Of a DNA stretch of 35,333 bases, positions 6,760-27,548 are shown one piece after another. Source of the DNA: an uncultured Dokdonia sp. GTDB taxonomy: Bacteria > Bacteroidota > Bacteroidia > Flavobacteriales > Flavobacteriaceae. Every line of letters begins with the position of its first letter. Position 1 is the first letter of the stretch. The notes under the pieces are model-generated. The model ran no database searches, had not been told where the DNA came from, and saw only the letters and a list, made by a program, of their open reading frames with translations. The DNA lies in assembly GCA_913060645.1 (NCBI GenBank), contig CAJXSW010000019.1:1-35333 (forward strand), read 5' to 3'. The position numbers and the translations under genes were made by a program.

Positions 6760-7556
6760 ACATCGTATCGCTGTATCCACTTAGGTCTCATTACAAAATA
6801 CTCCCAGAAAAAGCGTACTAAATATAGGGTGGCTGCTATATGAGAATATCCTAGGCAAGTTTTGTAAAACTGGTAGTTGTACTTAACGAGATTTAATTTA
6901 TTTGAGCTCATTGAGCCTTCACGTACTCTATAAAAAGCTAGGTCTTCTTGCAAACCTAAGGCGGGTTTTTCGCTCTTCTTTATCGCGTCTAACCACAGCG
7001 CCCAGTCTTGTCTTTTTCTAACGTCTGGAGCGCTTATTTTACCTATTGAGGTTGCATTGTAAATACCTGTGAGATTTCCCACATAGTTATTGCTGTGTTG
7101 CTTTTTGTAATGGAGCTCTGGTAATGCCACGATGCGTTTACCAAGTGGTTTTCCCTGTTCATCTATATGTACATAGCTGGTATAAGAAACGTCACAAGCT
7201 GTTTTTTGCATGAAAGCAATTTGCTTCTGGAGTTTTTCTGCATGCCATAAGTCGTCAGAGTCTAAGAATGCAATGAATTTTCCTTGGGCAGCTTCTGTTG
7301 CAATGTTGCGAGTGTGTGCGGCACCACTATTTCGCGAAAGCGTAATAAGTTTAATTCTATTATCAAGAGCTATTAGCGCTTTTACAATTTGAACAGAATC
7401 ATCTGTTGAGCAGTCATCAACGATAATTTGCTCCCAGTTTTGATACGTTTGTGCTTGAATACTCGCGATGGTTTGAGCAATAAATGGTGCTGCATTATAC
7501 AGCGGAGTGATAATGGAGACTAGTGGCTGTATATCTTTTTTAGTAAGCTTTGTCAT
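6756..7556 (-). CDS. Family 2 glycosyltransferase (GT-A)
   Basis: 266 residues with the classic GT2 N-terminal domain: VSIITPLYNA (13-22), the nucleotide-binding DDCSTDDS (47-54) and the metal-binding DSDD (99-102). No large membrane segments, though the C terminus has an aromatic stretch that may touch the membrane. It should add one sugar to the lipid-linked repeat unit at the inner face of the membrane. It is the last gene of the polysaccharide operon, starts 17 bp inside the end of the initiating transferase gene, and its stop overlaps that of the convergent CapK-like gene. A degenerate copy of the palindrome lies at codons 73-76 (LSRN). Confidence 0.9.
   Translation of the reverse strand: MTKLTKKDIQPLVSIITPLYNAAPFIAQTIASIQAQTYQNWEQIIVDDCSTDDSVQIVKALIALDNRIKLITLSRNSGAAHTRNIATEAAQGKFIAFLDSDDLWHAEKLQKQIAFMQKTACDVSYTSYVHIDEQGKPLGKRIVALPELHYKKQHSNNYVGNLTGIYNATSIGKISAPDVRKRQDWALWLDAIKKSEKPALGLQEDLAFYRVREGSMSSNKLNLVKYNYQFYKTCLGYSHIAATLYLVRFFWEYFVMRPKWIQRYDV
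7327..7342. repeat. Iterated palindrome, degenerate copy 3
   Basis: TTTCGCGAAAGCG is intact but the left CGC arm is CTA; lies in the GT2 gene and reads LSRN on the minus strand. Confidence 0.7.
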
Positions 7557-8892
7557 CTCCTACAATAGCTTTGTAAATAGTATTAAAAACAATTTTAATA
7601 TCTAAAAAGAGTGACCAGTTTTCTACGTAGAATATGTCAAATTTTACGCGGTTCACAATATCTTCATCGGTCTCAATTTCTCCTCTATATCCACTTACTT
7701 GCGCAAGGCCTGTAATTCCAGGTTTTATAAAGTGACGTACCATAAATTTATCTATACGCTCCGCATACATATGTGTGTGTCTCACCATATGCGGTCTAGG
7801 CCCCACCACAGACATGTCTCCCTTAAGAACATTTATAAATTGTGGCAACTCATCCATACTCGTTTTACGCAAGAAGCTACCTACTCTAGTAATACGACTA
7901 TCATTTTTACTCACCTGCTCAATATCTGCCTCTTCATTATCTCGCATAGATCGAAATTTATAGCAGTAAAACTCGTGATAATCTAATCCGTTACGTTTCT
8001 GTTTGAAAAACACAGTTCCTTTAGAGTCGAGCTTTATTAAAATTGCAAGCAAAGGGGTAAGCCATGATAATACGCCTACAAGTACAGCAATAGAAAGAAC
8101 GATGTCAAACGCACGCTTAATAAACTGATTTAATGGCTTATCTATAGGGATGGTACGCAATGATAGAATGGGAGTAATCCCTAGATATTGATATTCTAGT
8201 TTCTTTGTAAAGATCTCGCGGCTGTCTGGAATAAATTTTAATATCTTAAGGTTGTTATCTGTAAATTCAGATATCTCTCTCAACTCTTCATTAGTAAACT
8301 GCTCTACTGAGCAGTAAACCTCATCTACACTATTCTCTAATATGTAATTAAATATGCTGTCAAGAGATACACTTGGGTCTTTTATATCAAAGGTGCTACT
8401 CACTACATAACCATACCTTTTGTTTTCATCAAAAAACTTTTTAAGCTCCTTAACTTGTACATTCCAGCCTAAAATAACAACACGACGATGGTTACCTCCC
8501 AAAACCGCTCTATACGTTTTTAACAAATAGAATACTCCAAATTTATTGATCCCTACACCTATAAAAACATATAAAACATATAGAAACACAGCTATTGGAG
8601 AGGCGTCTACTGTTTGAAATAGACCAAAGAATGCAAAAACAAGTAATGCAAAAATGAATAACTGTAATAGTAAAAGAGATACTATACGTGTAGGCTTAGT
8701 ATACCTATAAACTTCATAAAAATCTGACTTGATGGTTGAAAAAATCCAAGTTGTCGTGATATATAATGAGAACACCACAAAATCTTCCTTCATGATAAGG
8801 CACACCTTAGCGAGTAATAAAATAATCACTAAGTCTATACCATATATTGCGGGCCTTATATAAAAGGAATATCTACCTACGCGTTGCGCCAT
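7540..8892 (-). CDS. Initiating sugar transferase (WcaJ/WbaP-type polyprenyl-phosphate sugar-1-phosphate transferase)
   Basis: 450 residues. The N-terminal part has four membrane segments, then a cytosolic CoA-binding-like region with VVILGWN near residue 138, then a fifth hydrophobic helix (IVLSIAVLVGVLSWL) leading into the catalytic domain with FFKQKRNG, YKFRSM, SMDELPQFINVLKGDMS and VVGPRPHM. This is the standard architecture of enzymes that move a sugar-1-phosphate from a UDP-sugar to undecaprenyl phosphate and so start the repeat unit at the inner membrane. It starts two bases after the stop of the UDP-glucuronate decarboxylase gene, so the two are in one operon. Which sugar is primed cannot be told from sequence; glucose, galactose and deoxy-amino sugars are all possible. 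Confidence 0.92.
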   Translation of the reverse strand: MAQRVGRYSFYIRPAIYGIDLVIILLLAKVCLIMKEDFVVFSLYITTTWIFSTIKSDFYEVYRYTKPTRIVSLLLLQLFIFALLVFAFFGLFQTVDASPIAVFLYVLYVFIGVGINKFGVFYLLKTYRAVLGGNHRRVVILGWNVQVKELKKFFDENKRYGYVVSSTFDIKDPSVSLDSIFNYILENSVDEVYCSVEQFTNEELREISEFTDNNLKILKFIPDSREIFTKKLEYQYLGITPILSLRTIPIDKPLNQFIKRAFDIVLSIAVLVGVLSWLTPLLAILIKLDSKGTVFFKQKRNGLDYHEFYCYKFRSMRDNEEADIEQVSKNDSRITRVGSFLRKTSMDELPQFINVLKGDMSVVGPRPHMVRHTHMYAERIDKFMVRHFIKPGITGLAQVSGYRGEIETDEDIVNRVKFDIFYVENWSLFLDIKIVFNTIYKAIVGDDKAY

Positions 8893-8894
8893 AC

Positions 8895-9881
8895 TTACTT
8901 GCGTATGTGTTTTGAAAAGTCTTTATGTTCACTTTTATATAACTGCTCCTGAGATAAGCTTTTAAAATATTCGAACGTCTTTCTCATGCCTTCCTTGCGG
9001 TCTACCTTAGCCTCCCAATCTAGTAGTTCTATTGCTTTTGAAATATCGGGTTTACGTTGCATAGGGTCGTCTACTGGTAAATCTTGATAAATTACCTTTT
9101 GATCTGTTCCGGTAAGTTTTATAATCTCCTCAGCAAAGTCTTTTATCGTGATTTCATCTGGGTTACCTATGTTTACTGGTAGTGCATAATCACTTAATAG
9201 TAGACGGTAAATCCCTTCTACTTGATCGTCTACATAGCAGAAAGAACGAGTCTGTAAACCGTCACCAAATATCGTTAGATCTTCTCCCCTGAGTGCCTGT
9301 CCCATAAATGCAGGTATTACTCTACCATCATTAAGTCTCATGCGAGGTCCATAGGTATTAAAGATTCTCACTATGCGGGTTTCTAAGCCATGAAAACGAT
9401 GATAAGCCATCGTGATAGATTCTTGAAAACGTTTTGCCTCGTCATATACCCCTCTAGGTCCTATAGTATTTACATTACCATAATAATTTTCATCTTGAGG
9501 ATGTACCAGTGGATCACCATAAACTTCAGAAGTTGATGCAATCAAAATACGGGCATTTTTAACCTTAGCCAACCCTAATAGGTTGTGTGTTCCTAAAGAA
9601 CCCACTTTAAGTGTCTGGATAGGAATTTTAAGATAGTCTATAGGACTTGCTGGTGATGCAAAATGCAAGATGTAATCGAGTTCACCAGGTACATGTACAA
9701 ATGTTGTAACGTCGTGATGATGGAACTCAAATTGCTCTAACTTAAAAAGGTGCTCAATGTTTGATAAATTCCCTGTAATAAGGTTATCCATACCAATTAC
9801 ATGAAAACCTTCTTTAATAAATCTATCACATAAATGAGACCCTAAAAATCCTGCAGCACCCGTAATTAAAACTCTCTTCAT
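8895..9881 (-). CDS. UDP-glucuronate decarboxylase (UDP-xylose synthase)
   Basis: 328 residues, an extended short-chain dehydrogenase of the UXS group. The NAD-binding GAAGFLG is at 8-14; [10 protein letters not shown] (115-124) and [11 protein letters not shown] (141-151, Tyr146 and Lys150) form the catalytic set, and [10 protein letters not shown] is typical of this group. UXS enzymes oxidise UDP-glucuronate at C4, decarboxylate it and reduce it to UDP-xylose. No UDP-glucose dehydrogenase is in the window, so UDP-glucuronate must come from elsewhere. An 82-bp gap with no clear promoter separates it from the WcaI-like gene upstream, the largest gap inside the operon; it contains a small ACAGA/TCTGT inverted repeat. 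A related 4-epimerase or dehydratase activity is a less likely alternative. Confidence 0.88.
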
Positions 9882-9963
9882 AATTGGTTGATTAATCTAT
9901 ACAGACTTAAAAATCTGTGTTCGTAAAAATAAGGAAGTATTAGCTGCTTGTAAAGCCTAAGCC

Positions 9964-11187
9964 TTATAACCTACTCAGGGTTTGAGAAAATTTCTCTAAA
10001 ATAGGTTTCCTTGCAAATTTTTCAAGTACATACTTTCTCGCAGCTGTACCCATAGTCATAGCTATTTCTGGAGTCGAATTGAGAGTTTCTAGCTGGCTCA
10101 ATATTATATCTACATTAATAACGGAGTTATAATATCCACCATTTGAATCTTTTATAATCTTAGCTGGCTCTGCGTCTGGGTGACCGGTGATGATAGATGG
10201 TCTAGCACTAGCCATCATACCTAGAATTTTAGAAGGCATAACCGTATCTACAACTTCGCCTTTTTGAAATAAAATATGCACATCTGCACTAGCAAGTAAA
10301 CTTGACAACTCTATAAATGGAACAGGCGGGTAGAATTTTACCTTCGTGTCTTTTAGATTTTCCTTTAGAACCTCCATTTTTGCCCCTGCCCCTACTACAA
10401 TTACTTCAAAACTATTAAAATCTAATGCTTTAACCACATTAGTAAATAACTGCCAGTCTTGCTTATCTCCCACATTTCCAGAATACAAAACACTACACTT
10501 ATCATGAGAAAAATAAGGATGTGCTTGTGACTTAGATGGATCACTCTCGGCTGCATCAATCCAGTTGGGTAGATAGTAAGTTTTGGAAGTGGTTTTCTCT
10601 TTAAGTTTGGCAAGCATTGTTTGACTTATAGTGCTTACATAATCTGCCTTATTAAGAATACTACGCTCTAATTTCATCAAAGCTTTGTATGCCATACTTG
10701 TATTTTCAACTCCAGAGGCAAGACCCGACTGAAAAGCTGCATCAAATTCAAAATCTTGAATGTGAATCCAGTGTTTTGCGTTACGCTTTCGCGAAAGCGT
10801 ATTACCTAACCACGCACTGCTCGTAAAAGGGATTACAGAGATTACAATGTCACACGCTGCAATCTGTTTGAAGTTAAAGCGTGATCCTATGGTAAAATCG
10901 GCTATGTGGATAACGCGTTTTAAGAATGTAGGCTCCTTGGGAGTAAACTGCTTATATCGATATATATCAATGGTTCCCTTCTTCTCATGTAAATAAGTTC
11001 CTTTGTTTTGATATGATTCTACTATCTCCCATTTTGGGTAATAAGGAAATGCTGTAATCACCGAAAGCAAAGCCCCTTGTGATTCCAGATATTCTGCTAG
11101 TTGTGTGCTATAAAGTCCTATTGCCGTGTCTTCTGGATAGAAGTTTAAGGAGATAAGCGTGATATGTTTGCCTTGTAGGTTATTCAA
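9964..11187 (-). CDS. WcaI-like family 4 glycosyltransferase
   Basis: 407 residues. The N terminus (HITLISLNFYPEDTAIGLYSTQLAEYL, seen near residues 8-34) is the form seen in WcaI-type GT4 enzymes of colanic-acid-like clusters; the GT-B C-terminal domain has LYSGNVGDKQDW, and IILSQLETL replaces the classic E-x7-E region with VVDTVMPSKILGMMASARP. The start is unusual: TTG at 11187, overlapping the wcaF stop in the 8-base string TTGAATAA, with no ATG near the conserved N terminus. That layout suggests coupled translation. Palindrome copy 4 gives LSRKR near residue 130. Donor and acceptor are unknown; E. coli WcaI adds to the colanic acid unit. Confidence 0.88.
   Translation of the reverse strand: MNNLQGKHITLISLNFYPEDTAIGLYSTQLAEYLESQGALLSVITAFPYYPKWEIVESYQNKGTYLHEKKGTIDIYRYKQFTPKEPTFLKRVIHIADFTIGSRFNFKQIAACDIVISVIPFTSSAWLGNTLSRKRNAKHWIHIQDFEFDAAFQSGLASGVENTSMAYKALMKLERSILNKADYVSTISQTMLAKLKEKTTSKTYYLPNWIDAAESDPSKSQAHPYFSHDKCSVLYSGNVGDKQDWQLFTNVVKALDFNSFEVIVVGAGAKMEVLKENLKDTKVKFYPPVPFIELSSLLASADVHILFQKGEVVDTVMPSKILGMMASARPSIITGHPDAEPAKIIKDSNGGYYNSVINVDIILSQLETLNSTPEIAMTMGTAARKYVLEKFARKPILEKFSQTLSRL
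10784..10799. repeat. Iterated palindrome CGCTTTCGCGAAAGCG, copy 4
   Basis: Perfect core extended to 18 bp (10783-10800), read as LSRKR in the WcaI-like gene. Confidence 0.95.
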
Positions 11188-11728
11188 TACGATCTTTTAT
11201 AATGATTGCTGGTGTACCTGTGCAGATTTTTCCTGCTGGTAAATTTTTAAAAACACTGCTTCTAGCACCTACCACAGTACCATTCCCTATTGAAACTCCA
11301 GGTGCCACATAGACATCTGTAGCAATCCAGCATTTTTCTCCTATAGTGATAGGGTGTGCTTCTATTTCAAAACTCGGAGAATGATAATCATGTGTTCCTG
11401 TACATAAGTAACTGCGTTGTGACACCACAGCATTTGCACCTACAGTAATAGGTCCCAGCGTATAAAGCGCCACCTCATCACCTATCCAGCAGTAATCTCC
11501 TAAAGCTAATTTCCAAGGATAGGTAATCTGAGCAGTGGGTCTTATAATCACTTTCTTACCCACTGTTGCTCCAAAGCATCTTAATAAAAACCGTCTCCAG
11601 CCGTATAAAGCTTGCGGAGAGTTTCTGAACAAAACAACGTACACAATACGCCATAATTGTACTATTATTCCAGACTTACCTCTGAAATCTTTAGGGGTAT
11701 TATATGATTTTAAATCTTGATAGTTCAC
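11180..11728 (-). CDS. WcaF-like O-acetyltransferase (hexapeptide repeat)
   Basis: 182 residues, the same length as E. coli WcaF as I recall it. It carries left-handed beta-helix hexapeptide repeats (for example IIRPTAQITYP, WIGDEVALYTLGPITVGANAVV, VAPGVSIGNGTVVGARSSV) and the CTGTHDYHSPSF segment with the catalytic-type His of this group. It should transfer acetyl from acetyl-CoA to a sugar hydroxyl of the repeat unit, in the cytosol. The start codon is GTG at 11728, sharing one base with the upstream TAG (TAGTG), and the end overlaps the TTG start of the next gene. Placement between two GT4 genes fits decoration of a colanic-acid-like unit. Confidence 0.9.
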   Translation of the reverse strand: MNYQDLKSYNTPKDFRGKSGIIVQLWRIVYVVLFRNSPQALYGWRRFLLRCFGATVGKKVIIRPTAQITYPWKLALGDYCWIGDEVALYTLGPITVGANAVVSQRSYLCTGTHDYHSPSFEIEAHPITIGEKCWIATDVYVAPGVSIGNGTVVGARSSVFKNLPAGKICTGTPAIIIKDRIE

Positions 11729-12804
11729 TAGCTTTTAAAAATATTAGTAAGCCTTTCTGAAAAGGCTGTTATCGTAAAATTTTTATTAAAGTAATTCACG
11801 TTACCTTCTCCTATTTCCTTGATAGTGGTAACATTGTTTGCAAGGTACTCCATCTTGGCCGCTAGATCTTCTACCTCTTGCTTTTCTACAAGAAAACCGT
11901 GTTTACCATCTTCTATCACATCTACAATCCCGCCTTGTGTGGTGGTAACTATTAATGATCCTGTTGCCATGGCTTCAAGTATAGAAATAGGTTGTCCTTC
12001 CATAGCATAATATGTAGGTAATACAAATACATTACCCCACTCAAAGAGTTCTTTCTTTTCTTTTCCGCGCACGACTCCTTTGTAATCTGTGTTTTTGAGA
12101 GTGAGCAGCAATGGGTTTACTTGAGACCACATTTCGGTAGTGACACCGCCTCCTATCTGTGCATGAAATGGCACTCCTTTGTCTTGAAGAATTTTAAGTG
12201 ATTTTAAAAAGACTAAAATACCTTTCTCCTCCATCAAGTTACTCAAATATATAAAACGAGGTGTAGTATAGGTCTTTGTAATATTTTCTTGTAAATATTC
12301 TTCGGCAAAATTAGGAAGTACGTGTATATCCTTCGGCTGTAAAAATGGAGTGAGATTAGCAATTAAAGATTGAGACAGTACAATCCCTGTAGTTGTTTTC
12401 GACATTAAAAAATGGACGATTCTTTGTTGCACACTACTCATTTGTTCATATGCAGTACCCAGGTGATTACCATGTATGTGGGTAATTATACGCTTTCGCG
12501 AAAGCGTACCAAACCCAATAAACAAGGCGTATTTAAGAACACCAAAAAAGGTCTGTCCTGGTGTTATATATAAAATATCGTTTGAAAAAACTTTAAACGC
12601 TGCTGTATTATACTTGAGATTATGCCAAAGTTTTTTAAATGAAAAACTTCCTAATTTCTCATCTAGCTCGCTAAATGAGGTGTTAACTACAGTCACTCTG
12701 AAACCTGCCTTAATTAACAATGTACTTGCTACCTGGTTAGCCAGCGAAACCCCGGTGGTGGGCTCTGGAAAAGGGCCTACAATAAGTATCTTTTTATTAG
12801 TCAT
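11728..12804 (-). CDS. Family 4 glycosyltransferase
   Basis: 359 residues from the ATG at 12804 (MTNKKILIVGPFPEPTTG). A longer frame starting at 12885 exists, but its extra 27 residues lie inside the preceding gene and do not look like a GT4 N terminus. The GT-B fold is clear: the N-terminal glycine-rich loop, then RFIYLSNLMEEKGILVFLKSL for the donor domain start and the E-x7-E motif in AMEGQPISILEAMATG. The gene overlaps the ligase-like gene by 8 bp (ATGACTAA), so translation is probably coupled. It should add one sugar to the repeat unit. Palindrome copy 5 is read as LSRKR near residue 105. Confidence 0.9.
   Translation of the reverse strand: MTNKKILIVGPFPEPTTGVSLANQVASTLLIKAGFRVTVVNTSFSELDEKLGSFSFKKLWHNLKYNTAAFKVFSNDILYITPGQTFFGVLKYALFIGFGTLSRKRIITHIHGNHLGTAYEQMSSVQQRIVHFLMSKTTTGIVLSQSLIANLTPFLQPKDIHVLPNFAEEYLQENITKTYTTPRFIYLSNLMEEKGILVFLKSLKILQDKGVPFHAQIGGGVTTEMWSQVNPLLLTLKNTDYKGVVRGKEKKELFEWGNVFVLPTYYAMEGQPISILEAMATGSLIVTTTQGGIVDVIEDGKHGFLVEKQEVEDLAAKMEYLANNVTTIKEIGEGNVNYFNKNFTITAFSERLTNIFKS
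12491..12506. repeat. Iterated palindrome CGCTTTCGCGAAAGCG, copy 5
   Basis: Perfect core, with the symmetry extending to 20 bp (12489-12508), read as LSRKR in the GT4 gene. Confidence 0.95.
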
Positions 12805-14023
12805 TAATAGGTGTGGCAAATAAGGTTTTGGCAGAAAGAAAATTAAAAAACAACGAGAAGTAAATGACCCCTGATTCTTTTTCAAAAATATTATCTGTGA
12901 GCATCATTATGCTATAGAATATGATTACCAAGATCAGTAGCTCATTATTGAACCTAACGGCAAAGATAAAATTTAAAACGAGTGTAGCTAAGAAAGCAAG
13001 CAACGCAATGAGACCTCCTATAAGCAATAAACTAAGAAACTGATTGTGGGCATTATATCCTCCTTCTTCTAGTAGTTTGGTTTCTAAAAGCTCGTATCTC
13101 TCTGTGAGCACCTCGCGGTAATCTCCAACACCATAGCCAGCTATAGGACTTTCTCGTATAACATCTAAGACTATTCCATAAATGGTAAATCTAATGTTTG
13201 TAGATGTAGGAGCTCCCTGGGTAATGGATTCAATATTTTTAAATTCTAAAAATTTATCTCTTGTGCGTGGTATGGCAATCATCAATACCAGTAGACCTAC
13301 TATTACAAAAGCGTACGGTTTTACTAAGCCTTTATTACGCTGAAAGAGCACAAAGACAAAGGATACAACCATAAGTGCTATAATAGATCCCTTCTTTGCA
13401 TAAAGTAATAAAAACAATACTAGTACAAGGTTTATAATAAGCAGTCCAACGATTTTCCATCGTGATTTTAGGGATCGAAATATGTATATGGAGAAAAGTA
13501 AAGCAGCACTACAATGCATTCCAGAATAAATAGGATGAATTTTATATTTACCTACATGAATTTTCATGATTATAGGAAAGTGCATAAGCATCTCATCAAA
13601 ACTATAATGCGTTATATAAAACCATAAAAAGGGTATAACGTTAAACAAAGCGACAGTAACCACATATACAGCAAAGTATCTTTCTAGATGAGTATGTAAT
13701 CGCTTAATGTCTTCTCGAGAATACATTGCAAAACAGAGTGGAAAGAGTATTAACGATAAAAATATGGTGAGCTTTTTTATGCCAAATTCAAAATTGTCAC
13801 TGTAGAGTAAAGTGCTCGCTACTACGATATACACAAGTCCATTTACTATAAAAAAACGAAAATTAAATGTGTTCTTACTTTTAAAAAAATGTAGTATTGA
13901 AACTACAGCAAATAGACCTATAGCTATAGACTTTGCATTAGAAGGTAGTAATACAGATGTAAATAATAGAAAGAGAGCACCTTCCGGTAATCTTAAGCTT
14001 TTTTGATGTGACTTTGCTTCCAT
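12797..14023 (-). CDS. O-antigen ligase / Wzy_C-family membrane protein
   Basis: 408 residues, about ten to twelve membrane segments, with one large periplasmic loop. The loop holds YGVGDYREVLTERYELLE, ending GGYNAHNQFLSLLLIGG, the signature arrangement of O-antigen ligase/polymerase proteins (WaaL and Wzy_C superfamily), where His and neighbouring Arg residues act on the lipid-linked donor. Together with the Wzy-like gene just upstream this gives two polymerase/ligase-type membrane proteins in one cluster. One probably polymerises, the other may ligate the chain to an acceptor. The start overlaps the upstream gene by 31 bp; there is no better internal start. Confidence 0.85.
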   Translation of the reverse strand: MEAKSHQKSLRLPEGALFLLFTSVLLPSNAKSIAIGLFAVVSILHFFKSKNTFNFRFFIVNGLVYIVVASTLLYSDNFEFGIKKLTIFLSLILFPLCFAMYSREDIKRLHTHLERYFAVYVVTVALFNVIPFLWFYITHYSFDEMLMHFPIIMKIHVGKYKIHPIYSGMHCSAALLFSIYIFRSLKSRWKIVGLLIINLVLVLFLLLYAKKGSIIALMVVSFVFVLFQRNKGLVKPYAFVIVGLLVLMIAIPRTRDKFLEFKNIESITQGAPTSTNIRFTIYGIVLDVIRESPIAGYGVGDYREVLTERYELLETKLLEEGGYNAHNQFLSLLLIGGLIALLAFLATLVLNFIFAVRFNNELLILVIIFYSIMMLTDNIFEKESGVIYFSLFFNFLSAKTLFATPIND

Positions 14024-15483
14024 TTTTGTTGATTGATTATTCCTTGTTTGATAAAATAATCTAATATTTTGGCAATACCCATAACTCCAACGAGGGTTCC
14101 TACGTAATATGAAAATCCATTTGCAAAATCACCTCTAAGAAAGAACACAAGATGAATAGCAAAATAAAAAGCCATCATCTTTTTCAGTAAGATACTACTT
14201 TGTAACCAAGTAAGTAAGTAAACAAGTGTGTACGCTAATGCTATTGCAAGCAGTATAACTCCCATTACTCCAAAGTTAATATAACCTTCTGAAACCATGG
14301 GGTTAGATAGATTACTAAAATTAAAGCCATAACTATCTATAAGGTGCTCTCCTACAAGTTGCCCGGTTGTTGTAGGTTTATCTGGCCATATTTTGCGTGG
14401 CACGAAAAACAGAAAGGCACTTAACAATTGATATCCGTATGAAAATCCCTCATACTTAACATAATCTATGGTGGCTACAATATTTATAAATGCATCATAG
14501 TGTAATGTATTAAAAACCTCCCCGATACCTTCTCCCTCAAATTCGTCTAGAAGCAATCGAGGTTGTATAAAAATCTCACGTAAAGATGACCTCACATGTG
14601 TAATTATTGCAGATAATGGAAATACAATAATCATTGTAAAAAACATAAAAAACATAGTTTTCACATTGCTATTAAATATTCCAGGTATAAAGAGGTAAAT
14701 AATTGATATGTAGATAGGTCCTAAAGCATTGCGCTTTTCTACTAGCGGGTTTTTAAACCACAACAAGAGCATTACAAAGATCATAAGTACTAATGCTATT
14801 GCCAATAAATTTTTTGACGAGCTTTTTGCATTCTTGTAATATTGCACTGAAAGAATAATTCCTCCTAACGGAACTACAAATAGTAGTTTTTTCCATAATA
14901 GCAATGCCGACGTTCCAACAGAAAACGATGTCTGTCCTGCTCTTGAAATCTCACTTATCACAAAATCATAACTTGCTATAAAAACGAATAATGATATTCC
15001 TAACAACCCTATTAATACCAAGGGTAATCTTTTATCACTCTCTATGTTATGTTTTACGACTCTAGTTTTTCTAGTTTTTTTAAGCAATGTATAAGTCCCA
15101 AAGAAGAAAGTAGTAAATATAACAACAAGCACATTTGCATAAATAATACCTCTAGGTGTATAAGGGAGGTTTGTAATAAAATCTGCATTCTTATTACCTA
15201 TCACCCGCAGTTGCAATATGGGCGCTATTATGAAAAATAAAAAGTTAAAAACAATATACACAGATATAAAAGGAGAGTACTCTTTCTCCTTATATAAATG
15301 CCACCAGAGAAGTGTAAATAGCACTAAGTTACTCACAAAAAAAGATGCCCATACCTCTATCTCTGTTGCAAAATTTGCAAATAGAAATGTGCTTATTACT
15401 ATATAAGCTCCAAGGAGCACTGCTTTTCCCAATTTACATTTTATATTTAAGTCAATATCATTTGCATTTACCCACAAAGACAT
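13993..15483 (-). CDS. Wzy-like oligosaccharide repeat unit polymerase
   Basis: 496 residues with a dozen or so membrane segments across the full length and a central-to-late periplasmic loop (about residues 285-375) containing HVRSSLREIFIQPRLLLDEF and FVPRKIWPDKPTTTGQ. The PRxxWPxKP phrase is typical of the O-antigen polymerase group found in Gram-negative Wzx/Wzy loci. It should join lipid-linked repeat units on the periplasmic side of the inner membrane. It overlaps the end of the preceding methyltransferase fusion by 26 bp and the start of the ligase-like gene by 31 bp. Polymerases are poorly conserved, so the assignment rests on topology, the motif and the neighbours. Confidence 0.82.
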   Translation of the reverse strand: MSLWVNANDIDLNIKCKLGKAVLLGAYIVISTFLFANFATEIEVWASFFVSNLVLFTLLWWHLYKEKEYSPFISVYIVFNFLFFIIAPILQLRVIGNKNADFITNLPYTPRGIIYANVLVVIFTTFFFGTYTLLKKTRKTRVVKHNIESDKRLPLVLIGLLGISLFVFIASYDFVISEISRAGQTSFSVGTSALLLWKKLLFVVPLGGIILSVQYYKNAKSSSKNLLAIALVLMIFVMLLLWFKNPLVEKRNALGPIYISIIYLFIPGIFNSNVKTMFFMFFTMIIVFPLSAIITHVRSSLREIFIQPRLLLDEFEGEGIGEVFNTLHYDAFINIVATIDYVKYEGFSYGYQLLSAFLFFVPRKIWPDKPTTTGQLVGEHLIDSYGFNFSNLSNPMVSEGYINFGVMGVILLAIALAYTLVYLLTWLQSSILLKKMMAFYFAIHLVFFLRGDFANGFSYYVGTLVGVMGIAKILDYFIKQGIINQQKWKQSHIKKA

Positions 15484-16864
15484 GTCTGTTTACAGCCAGT
15501 TCCTCATCCAAGATATATTCAAAACGCTCTCTAAAGGCAGAATCAAACCACTCTAAAGAGTAGTAATCAGGAGTTTTAGGAATATTGTTCATATCACCAA
15601 AATAAAGACCTAAAGGCATAAATTCAACTATTACATAGTTAGCTGAAAGATTCTCTAATGTATCAAAAATATGATCTAATGAAACATCCTGGGTAAGTAT
15701 CAAATGATGTGTGACTGCTAACGCTATTACTACATCGCCTTGAATTCGATCAACAAAAGAAGATGTATTATGGCGCTGGTTAGGTCTCACAAAATCATGT
15801 ACTAGAGTTAAATAATTGTCTTGACTACCATTAACTTTAAAATTTTGATCAAGCGCATTCTTATCATAATCTGTAGAAATCATTGTAGACAGATGCGTAT
15901 TGTTAATCAAAAAATTAGCAAATTTACCTTGGTTTGACGCTAGTTCAACAGCGCTAGTTGCATCTGCCATGTGCTTAGTTACGATTTCCTTAATCCTTAG
16001 AAAACGTTTGTCATTTTTTGGATCTTTATCATCATGGTAATCCTTCCAGTAAGAATCAAATGAGCTCCTGTCAATTTTACCAATGAGTTTACGGGCATGC
16101 TTTGTACTATAGTTGTTCTGAAATGCCTTTTTAAATCGTATGAGCTTTTCAAAGTGCTTATGATTACCATATTTATCAATGACTCTAGAATAACGAGCAG
16201 ACGCTAGTCTACGTTTACTAAATCTTATATGGTACAAGAGATTTGAAATACTTTTTCCAAAAAGACCTGCATAGCGGTACCTTAAGTTAAATAGATCTTT
16301 ATCGTTATAAAATCCATTATATAAAAAAATGTTGTTGGGAACATCTGCATAGCCTTTTTTGTAAAGAAATAGAGGAATATAAAATGAGTTATAAAAATTA
16401 GAAAAGCCAGACCAACTATTTTGGTTTCGAACATCTCTTTTTATAAAACTTCCAAAATCAACATAAACAGGCTTATTCATCATAAACACGACATTATAGG
16501 CGTGACTATCAAAAATCTCATACCCATGCTTAAAAGCAACCTCGTTTGCGTCTAAAACTACGTTTGCGGCTTTATGTAACATTGAAAAAGACCACTCATA
16601 AGGGTAGTTCCAATATTCAATATACTCATGTTCAATTACTAGTTTATAACCTTCTATCTCAACGTCAGATATCCATGTATTAACAAATAATTCTTTCTCA
16701 ATAAGCTCACTTATCAAGCCGCAATCAAACATATCCTCTACTTGAGAGATATACTCATCGTTTACAGCTCTAAATATTTTTTTTCCATAAAAATAAAGTG
16801 TACACATCTGATCAATAGAAAAGTCTACAGTTTTAAGGTTTTTTACTTTTAAAGGAGTACTCAT
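15458..16864 (-). CDS. Kinase-like domain fused to SAM methyltransferase (NoeA-like)
   Basis: 468 residues from the ATG at 16864, which overlaps the flippase stop as ATGA; an in-frame ATG at 16879 is also possible. Residues about 60-145 resemble the small-molecule kinase/aminoglycoside phosphotransferase catalytic region: FDSHAYNVVF (118-127) looks like the catalytic loop and VYVDFGSF (133-140) like the DFG segment. Residues about 290-410 are a class I methyltransferase fold with motif I as AVELASNQGKFANFL (306-320), an acidic STDYDKNAL strand end (330-338) and ALAVTHHL (381-388). Proteins with this arrangement resemble NoeA-type methyltransferases. It probably modifies a sugar or its carrier in the repeat unit, in the cytosol. 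Whether the kinase-like part is active is unknown. Confidence 0.7.
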   Translation of the reverse strand: MSTPLKVKNLKTVDFSIDQMCTLYFYGKKIFRAVNDEYISQVEDMFDCGLISELIEKELFVNTWISDVEIEGYKLVIEHEYIEYWNYPYEWSFSMLHKAANVVLDANEVAFKHGYEIFDSHAYNVVFMMNKPVYVDFGSFIKRDVRNQNSWSGFSNFYNSFYIPLFLYKKGYADVPNNIFLYNGFYNDKDLFNLRYRYAGLFGKSISNLLYHIRFSKRRLASARYSRVIDKYGNHKHFEKLIRFKKAFQNNYSTKHARKLIGKIDRSSFDSYWKDYHDDKDPKNDKRFLRIKEIVTKHMADATSAVELASNQGKFANFLINNTHLSTMISTDYDKNALDQNFKVNGSQDNYLTLVHDFVRPNQRHNTSSFVDRIQGDVVIALAVTHHLILTQDVSLDHIFDTLENLSANYVIVEFMPLGLYFGDMNNIPKTPDYYSLEWFDSAFRERFEYILDEELAVNRHVFVGKCK

Positions 16865-18183
16865 AATAGACGTGTCCATGTGTTTATATTGAAAATATTT
16901 ACAAACGCTTTGGTTTGTAGCTTAAAGTTTTCTCTTGTTTTTTTAAACAGTGCATTAATCAAATATCCTGAAATTGCATAAGAGATAAGTGTTGCGTAGG
17001 CCGCCCCAACTAGTCCATACCACTTTATGAAAAAGATATTTAATGTAATATTTATAATTGCTCCAACAACCAATCGTATACTGGAAAATTTTTCTAGATT
17101 TTCATTTAGATAATATCCCCAAGACCCATTACTCAAGAAAACAAAAACAATTGACCAAATATATAGAACTAGAACATCACTACTATCACTGTATTCATTT
17201 CCAAATAGCAATGGAACAAAGAAGTGTGCAGATAATGTATAAATCAAAGAAACTACTATTGCTATCTTAATAAGTAAATCGTAAAGCTGTTGGAGTCTTT
17301 TTAAAAATAAATCCCGATTGCTTTTTCTAATATTTACAAGTGATGGAAAAACTGATTGTGTGATTGCAGCTGTCACAAAAAGCCATATTCCCGTTAGTTT
17401 TACTGCCACGCTATATATCCCCAGTGATTCTTCACCTAAAATTTCCTTAATCATGACTTGGTCAATTTTCATGTATAATGCAGCTGCAACAGAACCTATA
17501 ATTAAAAACCAACTTTTACTTAATAACCTTTTTGCCCAATAGGTTTTAAATTTCCACAGCCATATAGAAAGTCCTGAAACATGATAAGCAATAATGTAAC
17601 TGAGAGATATAATAATCCATTCGGCAACAATTACATAACCAAAGTAAATTAAAGGAGTTTTTGAAAAAATAAGGAACACCTTAACCGCAGCAACAGCACC
17701 TACTGCAACGATGTTTCCTATAACCGTGTATTTACTACGTACATTGCTCTGAAAATAAAAATCAATCCCCTTAAAGCTTTGTAGGAGTATGCTTGACGCT
17801 ATCACAAATATCATTGTATTTGTGAGTGTTGTATGATCTAAAAACTGAGTTGCACCCACTATGAGACTAAACATCACAACAAATCCTAATAGCCTTAATC
17901 CTAGCGTAGTTCCAAGAATTTCATCTCTACTTGAACTATTATTTACAAGCTCTTTCGTTACTATTTGGTCTAAACCTAAAGCCGCAATTGCAGCAAATAG
18001 ATATACAAATGACTCTGCATAGCTTAATATTCCAAAATCGCTAGGACCTAAGTACCTAGCAATCCAAATGCCTATAAAGAAACCATCTAAAACACGTAGT
18101 CCTTTCTCAAATAATATCCAGACAGTATTTGAAAAATAGCGGCGAACATTAGCCTCCGCTAAAAATTGTTTCTTACCAAACAT
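16861..18183 (-). CDS. Wzx-like polysaccharide flippase
   Basis: 440 residues with about twelve membrane segments and the N-terminal FSNTVWILFEKGLRVLDGF / IARYLGPSDFGILSYA pattern common to polysaccharide-specific transport proteins of the MOP superfamily. It should flip the undecaprenyl-linked repeat unit across the inner membrane. Its ATG follows the fcl stop directly (TAGATG, no spacer), and its TGA overlaps the ATG of the next gene, so it sits in a tightly coupled operon. No signal peptide other than the first helix. Substrate specificity cannot be inferred. Confidence 0.92.
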   Translation of the reverse strand: MFGKKQFLAEANVRRYFSNTVWILFEKGLRVLDGFFIGIWIARYLGPSDFGILSYAESFVYLFAAIAALGLDQIVTKELVNNSSSRDEILGTTLGLRLLGFVVMFSLIVGATQFLDHTTLTNTMIFVIASSILLQSFKGIDFYFQSNVRSKYTVIGNIVAVGAVAAVKVFLIFSKTPLIYFGYVIVAEWIIISLSYIIAYHVSGLSIWLWKFKTYWAKRLLSKSWFLIIGSVAAALYMKIDQVMIKEILGEESLGIYSVAVKLTGIWLFVTAAITQSVFPSLVNIRKSNRDLFLKRLQQLYDLLIKIAIVVSLIYTLSAHFFVPLLFGNEYSDSSDVLVLYIWSIVFVFLSNGSWGYYLNENLEKFSSIRLVVGAIINITLNIFFIKWYGLVGAAYATLISYAISGYLINALFKKTRENFKLQTKAFVNIFNINTWTRLL

Positions 18184-19245
18184 CTACAGGTTTCCTAGAT
18201 ACCAATTATATAATCTATTAACTCCATCCTCAAGCACTACCATATGTTTCCATCCTAAACTATTAAGTTTTGTAACGTCTGTAAGTTTGCGCGGGGTGCC
18301 ATCTGGTTTTGAGCTATCAAAAATTAACGCTCCTGTAAAACCTATCGTTTCTTTGATGAGGGTAGCTAGTTCTTTTATAGAAATATCCTCTCCTGTGCCT
18401 ATGTTTATGTGTGTATTCCTTACTTCGGTGGTGCTTCCTTTTACATCGTCAAAACTTGTGTTTTCTAAGATATGTACACAAGCATCTGCCATATCTTGAC
18501 TCCATAAAAATTCTCTTCTGGGCGTTCCTGTTCCCCATATCTCAACACTTTCGGCTGTGACACCAAACTTTTCTAGTATAGGTTGCGCTTTCGCGAAAGC
18601 GGAAACATCAAGATCCTTACAAACCTCATCCTTCCTTCCTTCAGACAGTAGTTTTGCAAGGTGAATTTTTCTAATCAATGCTGGTAGCACGTGAGATTTC
18701 TCTAAGTCGAAGTTGTCATTAAATCCATATAGATTAGTAGGCATCACCGAAATGAAATCTGTTCCGTATTGCAGATTATAACTCTCGCAGAGTTTAATAC
18801 CTGCTATTTTTGCAATAGCGTACGGCTCATTTGTATATTCTAAAGCGCCCGTAAGTAGCGCCTCTTCTGGCATAGGTTGCGGTGCATTTTTAGGGTAAAT
18901 ACAGGTACTTCCTAAAAATAACAACTTCTTAACTCCGTGTACATAACTCTGATGAATCACATTATTTTGAATCATGAGATTCACGTACAGAAAACCTGCT
19001 CGGTATGTATTATTTGCGATAATACCACCCACTTTTGCGGCTGCTAGAAAAACATATTCAGGCTTTTCTTGTTCAAAGAATTGTTGCGTTGCAACAGTAT
19101 CTGTTAAGTCAAGTTCCTTGTGAGTTCGCGTGATTATATCCGTATAACCTTTCGCTTCAAGTGTATTCACAATGGCGCTCCCTACAAGACCGCGATGTCC
19201 AGCAACAAATATTCTAGCGTTTTTAGGTATTGGTGTGTTACTCAA
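18184..19245 (-). CDS. fcl: GDP-L-fucose synthase
   Basis: 353 residues. Extended short-chain dehydrogenase with GHRGLVG (16-22) for NADP, GSTCIYP (112-118, Ser113 and Cys115) and the catalytic Tyr142 and Lys146 (EPYAIAK). It carries out the 3,5-epimerisation and 4-reduction that turn the Gmd product into GDP-L-fucose. The start is TTG at 19245, overlapping the gmd stop as TTGAGTAA; no ATG lies near. Between about residues 190 and 232 it has an insertion relative to E. coli Fcl, a longer form usual in Bacteroidota; palindrome copy 6 lies inside that insertion as [24 protein letters not shown] follows, as expected. Confidence 0.96.
18586..18601. repeat. Iterated palindrome CGCTTTCGCGAAAGCG, copy 6
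   Basis: Perfect 16-bp palindrome in the variable insertion of fcl, read as AFAKA. Confidence 0.95.
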
Positions 19246-20356
19246 AATAATTCATCGTTTTATATCCGCCTTCTTTGAGATAGCTGTCTTTCTTCATCAG
19301 CCTTAGGTCACTTTGCATCATATCGTCTACAAGTCCTTGTAGTTGATATTCTGGCTTCCAGCCAAGCTTGTTGTAAGCCTTTGAAGCATCGCCTATAAGT
19401 AATTCTACCTCTGTAGGTCTAAAGTACTTAGGATCCACCTCAACAACTACCTGCCCTATTTTTACAGGGTATTCTGTATTTTCTGATGCAATAACAATTC
19501 CTTTTTCATCTATTCCTTCACCTTCAAATGACAACGTAACACCTATATGAGCAAATGACATTTTTATAAAGTCACGCACCGTCGTAGTCTCTCCAGTGGC
19601 GATTACCCAATCTTCTGGCTCATCTGCCTGCAAGATCATCCACATCATTCTCACATAATCCTTAGCATGACCCCAGTCACGCTTTGCGTCTAGATTTCCT
19701 AGATACATTTTATCTTGTAAGCCTAAAGCAATTTTTGATGTAGCTCTAGTAATCTTTCTAGTCACAAAAGTTTCTCCTCTTACTGGAGACTCGTGATTAA
19801 ATAAAATACCGTTACACGCAAACATATTGTAAGCTTCACGATGATTTACAGTAGACCAGTATGCATATAACTTTGCTACTGCATAAGGACTTCTTGGATA
19901 GAAAGGTGTTGTCTCAGACTGGGGTACTTCTTGTACCTTCCCATATAATTCTGATGTAGAGGCTTGATAAATACGCGTCTTTTTTTCAAGACCTAAAGCT
20001 CTCACTGCTTCTAATAGTCTTAAGGCACCCAGTCCATCTACATTTGCGGTATACTCTGGCATCTCAAAAGATACCTGTACATGGCTCATTGCACCTAGAT
20101 TATAAATCTCATCTGGCTGTACTTCTTGTATGATTCTAAACAGATTTGTGCTGTCCGTAAGATCTCCATAATGAAGAAAAAATCGCTGGTTATCAATATG
20201 TGGATCTTCATAAAGATGATCTATTCTATCTGTATTGAATAAAGACGATCTACGTTTAATACCGTGTACCTCATAGCCCTTCTTAAGTAAAAACTCACTT
20301 AAGTACGCTCCATCTTGACCAGTCACGCCGGTAATTAATGCTACTTTATTACTCAT
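19238..20356 (-). CDS. gmd: GDP-mannose 4,6-dehydratase
   Basis: 372 residues, normal length. GVTGQDG (10-16) binds NADP; the catalytic residues are in STSELYG (133-139, with Ser/Thr133-134 and Glu136) and in [10 protein letters not shown] (Tyr158, Lys162). [15 protein letters not shown] is also diagnostic. It converts GDP-mannose to GDP-4-keto-6-deoxymannose, which the next gene product turns into GDP-L-fucose. It starts 26 bp after the Wzz-like gene and overlaps fcl by 8 bp. Synthesis of GDP-mannose itself is not encoded in the window. Confidence 0.97.
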
Positions 20357-20382: not shown

Positions 20383-21381
20383 CTATCCTTTTAGGACCGC
20401 TGTTTCACGCCTGTATGATTTGTATACACTTACAATCCCTGAGAGTATTAGAAATATAATCACTAAGCCTAATGGGAAAATAACAATCAAATTATCTGTT
20501 ATAGATGACTTCTTTGATACTTGAATAGCACTTACGATTACAGCTACATCAGTATAGCTCACAAAATCATTTTTTTCAATCTCTAAATCTTCTACTAAGT
20601 CTGATTTAGTGTGAAATAATGATGCTAGGTTCTCATTTTGATTGTTAAAATAAAACCCCTCCCTGTCCTTTTGCTCTGATATATTGTTATCCTTACTGAA
20701 AGAATTGATAAGCTCATTTATCTGAGCAATAGATTGTTCTTGGCTTTCAAGATAAATCTTATGATTTTTAAGACCTTCTTTTTTCAACTCTTTAGCATAA
20801 GGGTTATCATTAATAAAAGATAAGAAAGACTCAATATCTTCTAAACTCTTATCACTGTCAAATACTATTCGGAGTTTGTGAAATTTAAACTTAGATAAAA
20901 ACCGATCTGTTGCAAACAATTCACGGTCACCTTTGAGCTTAAACTCTCTCGTCATTTCTCCTAGCGCACCATCATTATCACCTATATAATTCACTAAGTC
21001 TATCACCTCTACTACTGGCTCTACGCTAACGTCTTTAATACTAAAGTTTTCAGGAGACTTACCAAGAGATGTTATAAAACCCTCATCATCTTCTTCAAGG
21101 TTATTATTAAACTGCTCTATTGCCGTATAAACGTACGCCTGGCTCGTAAAATTAGTTTTAAGTAACAGATTTGCCTCATAAGATGGCTCCTCCTTCAAAA
21201 CGAACCCTAAAGCTATTCCAGCAACGATGAGTAATAAAAACGCCCACCACATTTTAATCATAAAATCAACAACTCTAAAAAATGAATAGACCACATTTTT
21301 AAATAGTCTACCTATCAAAGAAAAGATGTCTGAGAGGTCCATTTCTTGCTGATTTCCAGACTGATTGTAGTGATCGCTCAT
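20383..21381 (-). CDS. Wzz-like chain-length determinant protein
   Basis: 332 residues with two membrane segments, one near residues 43-64 and one near 298-319, and a long hydrophilic periplasmic stretch between them that looks helical (for example ESQEQSIAQINELINSFSKD). This is the topology of the polysaccharide co-polymerase family (Wzz), which sets chain length of Wzy products. The usual proline-rich motif at the second membrane helix is not obvious, so the assignment is from topology and position. There is no kinase domain, so it is not the autokinase type. It is the first gene of the polysaccharide operon; 38 bp separate it from the gene before, with no recognisable promoter there. Confidence 0.72.
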   Translation of the reverse strand: MSDHYNQSGNQQEMDLSDIFSLIGRLFKNVVYSFFRVVDFMIKMWWAFLLLIVAGIALGFVLKEEPSYEANLLLKTNFTSQAYVYTAIEQFNNNLEEDDEGFITSLGKSPENFSIKDVSVEPVVEVIDLVNYIGDNDGALGEMTREFKLKGDRELFATDRFLSKFKFHKLRIVFDSDKSLEDIESFLSFINDNPYAKELKKEGLKNHKIYLESQEQSIAQINELINSFSKDNNISEQKDREGFYFNNQNENLASLFHTKSDLVEDLEIEKNDFVSYTDVAVIVSAIQVSKKSSITDNLIVIFPLGLVIIFLILSGIVSVYKSYRRETAVLKG

Positions 21382-27033: not shown

Positions 27034-27050
27034 ATTGCTATTATTAATGA

Positions 27051-27548
27051 TTAACATCCAGACATCACAAGGACCGTGGTGTAATCTATATCTCTCTTAA
27101 TTGTAAAAAAACCTCCTAGTATATTGTCGGTTGGTCTGTATTCTGTAAGGTCAAAGTTCCAATGATTCTGACCATAATCTCCAAAAATCTTATTAACCGA
27201 CTCCACCCACAACAGCACAGATTCTCTATTAGGGTTTGCTATGGTGAGCACTTCTCCAGTTGCAAGTGCTGCGTCGCCACAATTGCGTTTTGTATAAACG
27301 ATTCCATTTTCAAAAGTTTGTGTAAATCCGCAATCTCCGCCACCATTAGGTGGAAGAATTTCCTTGTCTGAAATGGCATTATAATTATCTATCAAGTACG
27401 TGTAAACAGGATTTTTTATAATACCTTTTTCATTTTCCTCACTATTTACTACGGTATAAGCCGCAGCATCATACGGTTTAAGGGTTACTTCCTGTGCAGC
27501 AAGTACTGCTGTAAAGCATAAGCTTAATGAAAGAAGTAACTTTTTCAT
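27051..27548 (-). CDS. Small secreted protein of unknown function
   Basis: 165 residues from the ATG at 27548, chosen because the signal peptide MKKLLLSLSLCFTAVLAAQ begins there; a longer frame starts at 27569 inside the preceding gene. Cleavage after AALA-type residues should release a periplasmic protein. It contains Cys in GGGDCGFTQ and KRNCGDAA and ends with a terminal SGC, so disulphides are possible. I do not recognise a family. The gene lies 7 bp after the MltD-like gene and 17 bp before the DUF4837 gene, so the three are probably co-transcribed and may share an envelope role. Confidence 0.75.
   Translation of the reverse strand: MKKLLLSLSLCFTAVLAAQEVTLKPYDAAAYTVVNSEENEKGIIKNPVYTYLIDNYNAISDKEILPPNGGGDCGFTQTFENGIVYTKRNCGDAALATGEVLTIANPNRESVLLWVESVNKIFGDYGQNHWNFDLTEYRPTDNILGGFFTIKRDIDYTTVLVMSGC

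Follow-up and report, generated by a model that had tools for sequence, protein, structure and literature searches.

WbdD of Escherichia coli O9a, present also in Klebsiella pneumoniae O3, is a methyl-phosphate capping enzyme that terminates chains in an ABC-transporter (wzm-wzt) pathway with the aid of a coiled-coil ruler. Its methyltransferase precedes its kinase, and the coiled coil is C terminal; 4azs is a structure of the enzyme. The WbdD of O5/O8 caps with methyl instead of methyl phosphate (PMC11231755). The WbdD reaction has been followed by 1H,31P-HMBC NMR; the variants H132A, H133A and R203A keep kinase activity but have lost phosphate methylation, and free monosaccharide phosphates are not methylated by the methyltransferase (PMC3482155). 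Enzymes of the NodS/RebM type carry the HH pair as well; conservation of R203 does not extend to NodS or RebM (PMC3482155).

Kinase-methyltransferase fusions have been reported elsewhere. ORF6-O7 of K. pneumoniae O7 is a methyltransferase-kinase protein that makes methyl phosphate and is distinct from WbdD; according to the available part of its description, its kinase is nearest to the amicoumacin kinase AmiN, and it has a CBM and a coiled coil of its own (PMC11231755). The NoeA/Lani_1194 family was described by bioinformatics in 2022. It is widespread: the accessible text of that account reports homologues in 1201 species besides Legionella, a frequent though not universal NoeB-like neighbor gene (38%) and an Arg (R38) in place of the β3 Lys (K72), with no ion-pair Glu found; it sets the Lcin_0519 family, also a kinase-methyltransferase fusion and associated with LPS genes, apart from Lani_1194 (PMC9758233). 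As stated in the accessible parts of papers citing Ardourel 1995, noeA is needed for nodulation of particular Medicago species. We found no biochemistry or known reaction for any member of the NoeA/Lani_1194 family in the literature.

RESULTS

A kinase-methyltransferase fusion encoded next to wzx

The window, a stretch of 35,333 nucleotides from an uncultured Dokdonia sp., contains at 15458..16864 on the minus strand an open reading frame that a first-pass annotation had read as a kinase-like domain fused to a methyltransferase. The frame proved to be real and encodes 468 amino acids. Its ATG at 16864 overlaps the stop codon of wzx (ATGA), and a second in-frame ATG lies further upstream at 16879.

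The neighboring genes, all on the minus strand as well, confirm the proposed position between wzx and wzy, with wzy being putative. The Wzx flippase gene (16861..18183) matched PF01943 above the cut-off (3.1e-21), and the putative Wzy polymerase (13993..15483) has 11 hydrophobic stretches and a subthreshold match to PF14296 (19.4 bits; cut-off, 26.6). An O-antigen ligase/Wzy_C-type membrane protein is encoded at 12797..14023 (PF04932, 5.4e-19), and the remaining operon (7540..12885) encodes two GT4-type glycosyltransferases, a WcaF-type acetyltransferase, an epimerase and an initiating sugar-phosphate transferase. On the other side of wzx are a GDP-L-fucose synthase-like gene (fcl; 18184..19245; NF047922, 460.5 bits, below the cut-off of 500), the GDP-mannose 4,6-dehydratase gene (gmd; 19238..20356; TIGR01472, 603.7 bits, cut-off 415) and a gene for a Wzz-like protein with two predicted transmembrane segments (20383..21381). 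The last was assigned by topology only (hydrophobic segments around residues 42-62 and 299-319), and its product had no confident Pfam match. A limited literature search revealed no papers on Dokdonia polysaccharides.

The N-terminal domain has a protein-kinase-like fold

All VIA matches listed for the whole protein were taken by the methyltransferase, and therefore the kinase-like domain (residues 1-266; 16067..16864, minus strand) was folded alone. The resulting model (pLDDT 93.2, pTM 0.90) has a protein-kinase-like fold, and the 50 VIA matches listed for it were all protein kinases, with Z scores of 10.2 to 11.0; in VIA, Z scores can arise by chance when they are below 8 or, with helical bundles, below about 13, and the C-lobe of kinases is helical. 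Foldseek gave kinase matches with TM-scores of only 0.33 to 0.47. For the fusion protein, no kinase family was listed in Pfam (E values up to 1) or NCBIfam (E values up to 0.1). As to the aminoglycoside phosphotransferases (APH) with which comparison had been suggested, there was no kinase or APH match in Pfam, and the VIA matches listed, though protein kinases, are compatible with APH. The kinase-like fold first proposed for the N-terminal domain is supported.

The motifs on which that proposal was based are indeed conserved beyond chance. DSHAYNV corresponds to residues 119-125 and VDFGSF to residues 135-140, and the catalytic loop and metal-binding segment (D119..N124..D136-F-G-S139; 16448..16510, minus strand) contain D119, N124, D136 and S139, which are invariant in all 74 homologues of alignment A3. 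R32 (16769..16771, minus strand), E90, H386, H387, E414 and R460 are likewise invariant in 74/74. Alignment A3 does not include seven of the 80 loci (L070, L102, L103, L106, L109, L114 and L123), the starts of whose reading frames are truncated or doubtful. The ATP-binding Lys that the first-pass annotation recommended looking for is absent: its position holds R32, as the accessible text of PMC9758233 gives for the family. The kinase pattern of the family (R32, D119, N124 and D136) was present in 74/74 sequences, with R32 taken as the equivalent of K72 from that text's account of R38.

The C-terminal domain is a class I methyltransferase resembling that of WbdD

Residues 268-468 (15461..16063, minus strand) form the class I methyltransferase predicted to follow the kinase domain, as found with Foldseek and VIA (Z scores of 16.4 to 18.3 among the matches listed). 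Pfam recognized it weakly (Methyltransf_12, 18.3 bits; cut-off, 30). Among its best structural neighbors are TylM1, a sugar N-methyltransferase, and NodS.

The resemblance to WbdD suspected from the first reading was borne out by profile searches. WbdD was the best match of the family profile among PDB sequences (full-sequence E value, 3.6e-5), whereas a PDB search with the single fusion sequence gave no match at E values up to 10 and the profile of the kinase domain alone gave none either. In the HMMER alignment, H386-H387 (15704..15709, minus strand) paired with H132-H133 of WbdD and D119/N124/D136 with D351/N356/D369, although the kinase match was weak (3.3 to 3.4 bits; taken on its own, a match of this score would be expected about 300 times by chance). 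Alignment of the methyltransferase domains with hhalign gave a probability of 97.7 (E value, 2e-12), or 84.2 (E value, 7e-6) with branch sequences only (see below), and the global alignment paired R460 (15485..15487, minus strand) with R203. The kinase domains aligned with a probability of 44.9 (E value, 2e-4), which was 31.6 with branch sequences only and 6.6 in the global mode. When family members were aligned to WbdD one by one, 33 of the 74 alignments did not extend to the HH and R sites, and 29 of the remaining 41 placed the family Arg opposite R203. At the position of Y16 of WbdD, 12 of 44 alignments reaching the site had Tyr and 15 had a gap. Two unfused relatives of the WbdD methyltransferase have neither the HH pair nor the Arg; for four of the six control methyltransferases, this comparison produced no alignment that could be used. 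Taken together, the active-site residues of the window protein appear to correspond to those of WbdD, the kinase residues in a weak alignment and R460 with less certainty. The two proteins, both composed of a kinase and a methyltransferase that in WbdD act on glycans, differ in domain order, which is kinase then methyltransferase in the window protein, and in the C terminus: in the model, the window protein ends at the last strand of the methyltransferase (residues 460-467), whereas WbdD ends in a coiled coil.

The protein belongs to an exporter-linked branch of the NoeA/Lani_1194 family

Judged by its sequence, the window protein is a member of the NoeA/Lani_1194 family, and the kinship with NoeA that had been suspected is supported: it matched the Sinorhizobium meliloti plasmids in tblastn (best E value, 5e-17 over residues 57-422), and it is homologous to NoeA over its full length (alignment A1, which is without L010, and the tree). 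The plasmid record is unannotated at the match; the name NoeA rests on the nodL-noeA-noeB operon given in the available part of PMC9758233. Both proteins have the kinase-then-methyltransferase order, the Arg at the β3 position and the same D/N/D, HH and R residues. Unlike NoeA, with which it shares 20% identity in alignment A1, the window protein has a His in the catalytic loop (D-x-H-x-x-N), and it falls in a separate branch.

The family loci analyzed were the best 80 from a scan of genome contigs, of at least 80 in total. The branch consists of the 14 sequences found, from four phyla, and forms one side of a split with an SH-aLRT value of 100 in two quick trees, both midpoint rooted. D119, N124, D136, S139 and R460 are conserved in 14/14 members, and R32 (absent from L164) and H386-H387 in 13/14 each. 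The gene directly upstream encodes an exporter in 11 of the 14 (Wzx in 9, Wzt in 2); the other three are the two copies in L153 and the one in L164, which adjoins a Maf-type flagellin glycosyltransferase gene. One of the L153 copies has lost H387, N311, W273 and Y276 but kept the kinase residues. In L131 and L154, the gene comes after wzm-wzt, and Wzt_C was matched in both (below the Pfam cut-off in L154); the gene order is the same as in an O9 locus, where wbdD lies after wzm-wzt.

In contrast to noeA, the window gene is flanked by wzx and wzy and does not adjoin a NoeB-like (sulfatase/alkaline-phosphatase fold) gene. At the 75 NoeA-like loci, a sulfatase was found in 24 of 55 downstream genes (those of 150 amino acids or more among 57 same-strand neighbors within 400 bases) and in 9 of 39 upstream genes (of 43 neighbors). 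The upstream families given are 25 of the 51 matched, so that any of the 39 genes might still match Polysacc_synt. Downstream genes of the branch were scanned for a sulfatase in part, a 675-amino-acid gene in L054 being among those left out.

Since gmd and fcl are close to the window gene, we also note their distribution. gmd was above the cut-off in 10/10 branch genomes searched (L051 and L130 are 93% identical and not independent; G844, G815 and G1310 were left out), in 84 of 199 family genomes (two of them branch genomes) and, among the 14 control genomes, in 6. Of the first 10 branch loci, 7 have an Fcl-like gene no more than four genes upstream; of the 75 other loci, 3 have one at up to that distance in either direction. 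Our calling of reading frames overlooks genes under longer overlapping frames, such as gmd in L055, found later, and we take the link of the branch to gmd and fcl as a hint only. Phage sequences gave no match to the fusion protein, and the two stretches of viral contigs that fitted the pattern do not encode a relative.

DISCUSSION

We infer that the fusion protein may be a bifunctional cytoplasmic enzyme. Its N-terminal kinase would transfer the γ-phosphate of ATP to a sugar hydroxyl, either of the repeat unit on its undecaprenyl carrier or of a precursor, and its C-terminal methyltransferase would use SAM to methylate the new phosphate, so that Wzx would then flip a glycan bearing methyl phosphate. 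We give this sequence of events about an even chance. The first-pass annotation had already proposed modification of the repeat unit, and the fact that wzx immediately precedes the gene in 9 of the 14 members of the branch speaks for it. That a fucose residue is the acceptor, as the neighboring gmd and fcl could indicate, is a weaker guess.

Because the β3 Lys is replaced by Arg and no ion-pair Glu was found for the family in the accessible text of PMC9758233, the kinase could have little or no activity, or its reaction could be the transfer of another group. The kinase-like domain might then be a pseudokinase, a scaffold or a transferase of another group, and the protein a sugar O- or N-methyltransferase, as its structural neighbors TylM1 and NodS would allow. 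Kinase-like domains that transfer another group are known from SelO and SidJ. However, invariant D119, N124 and D136 would be unusual in a dead kinase, the L153 copy has preserved its kinase residues despite a decayed methyltransferase site, and HH and R match WbdD, whose methyltransferase requires a phosphate; we regard this alternative as unlikely. A phosphate acceptor other than a lipid-linked glycan, namely a nucleotide sugar or other small soluble molecule or a protein, would agree with the listed structural matches to protein kinases and with the Maf-type gene beside L164, but fits poorly with exporter adjacency in 11/14 members, with the surrounding polysaccharide genes and with the inactivity of the WbdD methyltransferase on free monosaccharide phosphates (PMC3482155). 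We consider it quite unlikely.

Since both of its predicted activities are those of WbdD and the active sites are alike, and given the wbdD-like gene order of L131 and L154, the protein could also cap the nonreducing end of the growing polymer as a chain terminator or chain-length regulator. An influence on chain termination had been suggested at first sight, but was set aside for the window locus, where the protein ends with the methyltransferase domain and its model has no coiled-coil ruler, the operon is of the Wzx/Wzy type and a gene of Wzz-like topology is nearby. In the Wzx/Wzy pathway, units are polymerized after export. Capping of the polymer at this locus is, in our view, improbable.

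The NoeA/Lani_1194 family itself was already known; the exporter-linked branch and the match of its residues to WbdD, with the methyl-phosphate chemistry that this makes likely, were not found in the literature. Going beyond phosphorylation and methylation of the repeat unit, the branch may be a counterpart of WbdD with reversed domains, which would place methyl phosphate on cytoplasmic lipid-linked glycans together with the adjoining exporter (Wzx, or Wzm-Wzt with a glycan-reading Wzt_C), and the mark may be the recognition signal of the exporter, also in Wzx/Wzy systems. We know of no such export mark in Wzx/Wzy pathways, and we put this forward as a doubtful, speculative extension. If it were true, the same chemistry would explain NoeA, the product of a nodulation host-range gene. 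The residue match to WbdD gives the family a concrete, testable reaction, phosphorylation followed by methylation of the phosphate, and names the residues to mutate, and the exporter-linked branch offers a clean test case because the polysaccharide can be isolated.

A kinase-like domain and a methyltransferase in one protein

The fusion gene lies on the minus strand at 15458-16864, with its stop side at 15458 and its start at 16864 or, alternatively, 16879; with the former start, its ATG shares the sequence ATGA with the stop codon of the upstream flippase gene. The host genome (a 3.1-Mb draft) carries a single match to the protein, and the closest named relatives of the protein among the best 80 loci listed are from Dokdonia (63% identity), which makes a flavobacterial source likely. 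The gene is surrounded by genes of a Wzx/Wzy-type polysaccharide. Two encode Wzx and the putative Wzy; others encode a membrane protein resembling ligases, glycosyltransferases, an acetyltransferase of the WcaF type, Gmd and Fcl, and the initiating sugar transferase. A two-TM protein of Wzz-like topology is encoded at 20383-21381 (without a confident Pfam match) and was found in the two Dokdonia loci as well. DUF6909 and DUF4837 proteins of unknown function are encoded near the operon (21420-23114 and 26062-27057).

The AlphaFold2 model of the fusion protein, built on the 74-sequence alignment, had a mean pLDDT of 92.0. Residues 268 to 468 resembled class I methyltransferases (VIA Z of 16.4 to 18.3 in the best 50 matches listed). 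Since methyltransferases occupied the entire list for the whole protein, residues 1 to 266 were modeled separately (pLDDT of 93.2), and here the best 50 VIA matches listed were protein kinases throughout (Z of 10.2 to 11.0; rmsd of 3.9 to 6.6 over 198 to 219 residues). An N-terminal fold unrelated to kinases, named in the first-pass annotation as the outcome that would speak against its reading, was not what we found. These Z values lie between the 7 to 8 that VIA lists as typical of models lacking a clear match and the approximately 13 that it lists for helical bundles, and Foldseek TM-scores of the domain were modest (0.33 to 0.47); we therefore base the kinase reading on the fold combined with the invariant D/N/D motif. 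Together, the modeled folds and this motif bear out the earlier assignment of an N-terminal kinase-like domain and a methyltransferase to one protein. The reading is correct, though the family is already in print.

Active-site residues shared with WbdD

All 74 family sequences aligned share R32, E90, W91, D119, N124, D136 and S139 in the N-terminal part and W273, Y276, N311, G313, H386, H387, E414 and R460 in the methyltransferase part. The top PDB match of the family profile was WbdD, the methyl-phosphate capping enzyme of E. coli O9a (E = 3.6e-5 for the full sequence; 0.003 for the methyltransferase stretch alone). Profile alignments placed HH opposite the HH of WbdD and D-x-x-x-x-N...D opposite its kinase, with the domains in swapped order; the WbdD kinase stretch by itself was not significant (3.3 to 3.4 bits). 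In hhalign, the methyltransferase domains matched WbdD with a probability of 97.7 (E = 2e-12), or 84.2 (E = 7e-6) with sequences of the exporter-linked branch only, and R460 stood opposite R203 in the global version. The kinase domains reached 44.9 (E = 2e-4), 31.6 with the branch only and 6.6 globally, with the catalytic segment covered; when the domains were swapped as a control, the probabilities were 0.1 (E = 0.5) and 8.6 (E = 0.004). The protein at the wbdD position of an E. coli O9-type plasmid has Y16, H132, R203, D351, N356 and D369, as numbered in the crystal paper; the numbering of the annotated Klebsiella WbdD is shifted by 8.

According to PMC3482155, WbdD altered at H132, H133, R203 or Y16 loses methylation and keeps phosphorylation, and NodS and RebM are without R203. 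In two relatives of the WbdD methyltransferase that are not fused to a kinase, the HH positions read S-H and N-Y, and the R position is G and K. WbdD Y16 stood opposite Y in 12 of the 44 single-sequence alignments that covered it and opposite a gap in 15. From the correspondence of H386, H387 and R460 with WbdD, the mutant effects, the absence of R203 from NodS and RebM and the differing residues of the unfused relatives, we infer that members of the family use their methyltransferase on a phosphate produced by their own kinase.

The NoeA/Lani_1194 family

The search for full-length homologues covered 395 genomes of the host's phylum, of which 14 had one, and 397 of its taxonomic family, of which 58 did (host genome counted in both); in the latter set, close relatives were restricted to the host genome and one other (592 bits; next best, 100 bits). 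S. meliloti plasmids carry a homologue preceded by a gene read as a NodL-like acetyltransferase and followed by one for a sulfatase-fold protein (2.8e-10). Gene order and lengths fit nodL-noeA-noeB; the plasmid record is unannotated there.

As already described in PMC9758233, the family has a kinase with Arg in place of the catalytic Lys, is connected to NoeA and NoeB and, in 94% of its roughly two thousand homologues, also has the methyltransferase. In the available text of that paper, WbdD is compared to a different family, Lcin_0519, and we found no alignment of NoeA or Lani_1194 with WbdD; the phrase "methyl phosphate" is absent from the main text. A literature search, with subscription journals and preprints mostly outside its coverage, returned no other publication joining NoeA with WbdD. 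As far as can be checked, the residue-level tie to phosphate methylation, a computational one, is new.

An exporter-linked branch

One group was split from the rest of the family with an SH-aLRT of 100 in two quick trees (10 of 84 rows in the first and 13 of 31 in the second; L130 in the first only), giving 14 members. With the phylum of part of the genomes assigned by kinship, these are Bacteroidota (the window protein, L050, L051, L053, L056, L130, L131, L154 and two copies at L153), Campylobacterota (L052 and L164), Pseudomonadota (L055) and Chloroflexota (L054). The catalytic-loop His (D-x-H-x-x-N) was present in 14/14 members versus 0/66 remaining rows of the alignment. All members have D119, N124, D136, S139, E414 and R460, and 13 each have HH and R32, the latter being replaced by Met in L164 (7775-9025). 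At L153, one wzx cluster contains two distinct copies, 8161-9582 (+) and 13238-14674 (-). One of them is convergent with wzx and overlaps it; its methyltransferase site lacks H387, N311, W273 and Y276, and its kinase residues are retained.

An exporter gene lies directly upstream on the same strand in 11 of the 14 members (Wzx in nine, Wzt in two). In one scan, Polysacc_synt was matched by 9 of 11 upstream proteins, the other two being Wzt and Wzm of L131. The Wzt_C match at L131 (2.3e-10) was assigned to the upstream protein by exclusion, and that at L154 (25.5 bits) is under the cutoff of 30.4. Neither copy at L153 directly follows an exporter gene, and the gene upstream at L164 encodes a Maf-type protein. 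At NoeA-like loci, i.e., those outside the branch, a sulfatase-fold protein was found in 24 of 55 scanned downstream and 9 of 39 scanned upstream genes; among the 25 of 51 families listed for these 39 upstream genes, Polysacc_synt was absent and ABC-2 transporter domains matched one gene each. TypA/BipA was matched by 4 of the 39, and at three loci of several Flavobacteriaceae (L132 to L134) the NoeA-like copy is placed after a gene for ~600 aa. As far as checkable, the branch, delineated computationally, is new.

Identity to the window drops together for Wzx and the fusion protein, respectively: L056, 70 and 63%; L050, 69 and 63%; L051, 61 and 54%; L130, 60 and 54% (the latter for its genome); L052, 51 and 42%; L053, 28 and 32%; L055, 28 and 32%; and L054, 22 and 32%. 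This fits joint inheritance of the two. Unannotated neighbors of ~257 to 299 and ~315 to 350 aa recur at L052, L053, L055 and L154, accompanied by FdtA-like and aminotransferase-like genes; the three proteins tested had no Pfam match. L164, a relative from the class of a Sulfurospirillaceae genome, adjoins a gene for a Maf-type glycosyltransferase and what we read as a flagellin-like ORF, and because of these neighbors its enzyme may act in flagellin glycosylation, too.

Decoration or chain termination

The best explanation, which we consider about as probable as all others combined, is formation of a methyl-phosphate on a lipid-linked glycan before export: the kinase would phosphorylate a sugar of the undecaprenyl-linked unit at the cytoplasmic face, the methyltransferase would cap that phosphate with a methyl group, and Wzx would flip the modified unit. 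Our confidence is slightly lowered by the weak match to the WbdD kinase.

In an O9 locus, wbdD stands after wzm-wzt, and the fusion genes of L131 and L154 have the same order; a WbdD-like cap recognized by Wzt_C is plausible there. In Wzx/Wzy systems, polymerization follows export and the chain is transferred onto the new unit. Thus, a blocked acceptor hydroxyl would prevent extension of that unit, but a modification at another position would end up on each repeat as a decoration. The possible influence on chain termination suggested in the first-pass annotation is not supported for the window locus; given this pathway and the nearby gene of Wzz-like topology, decoration is the simpler reading.
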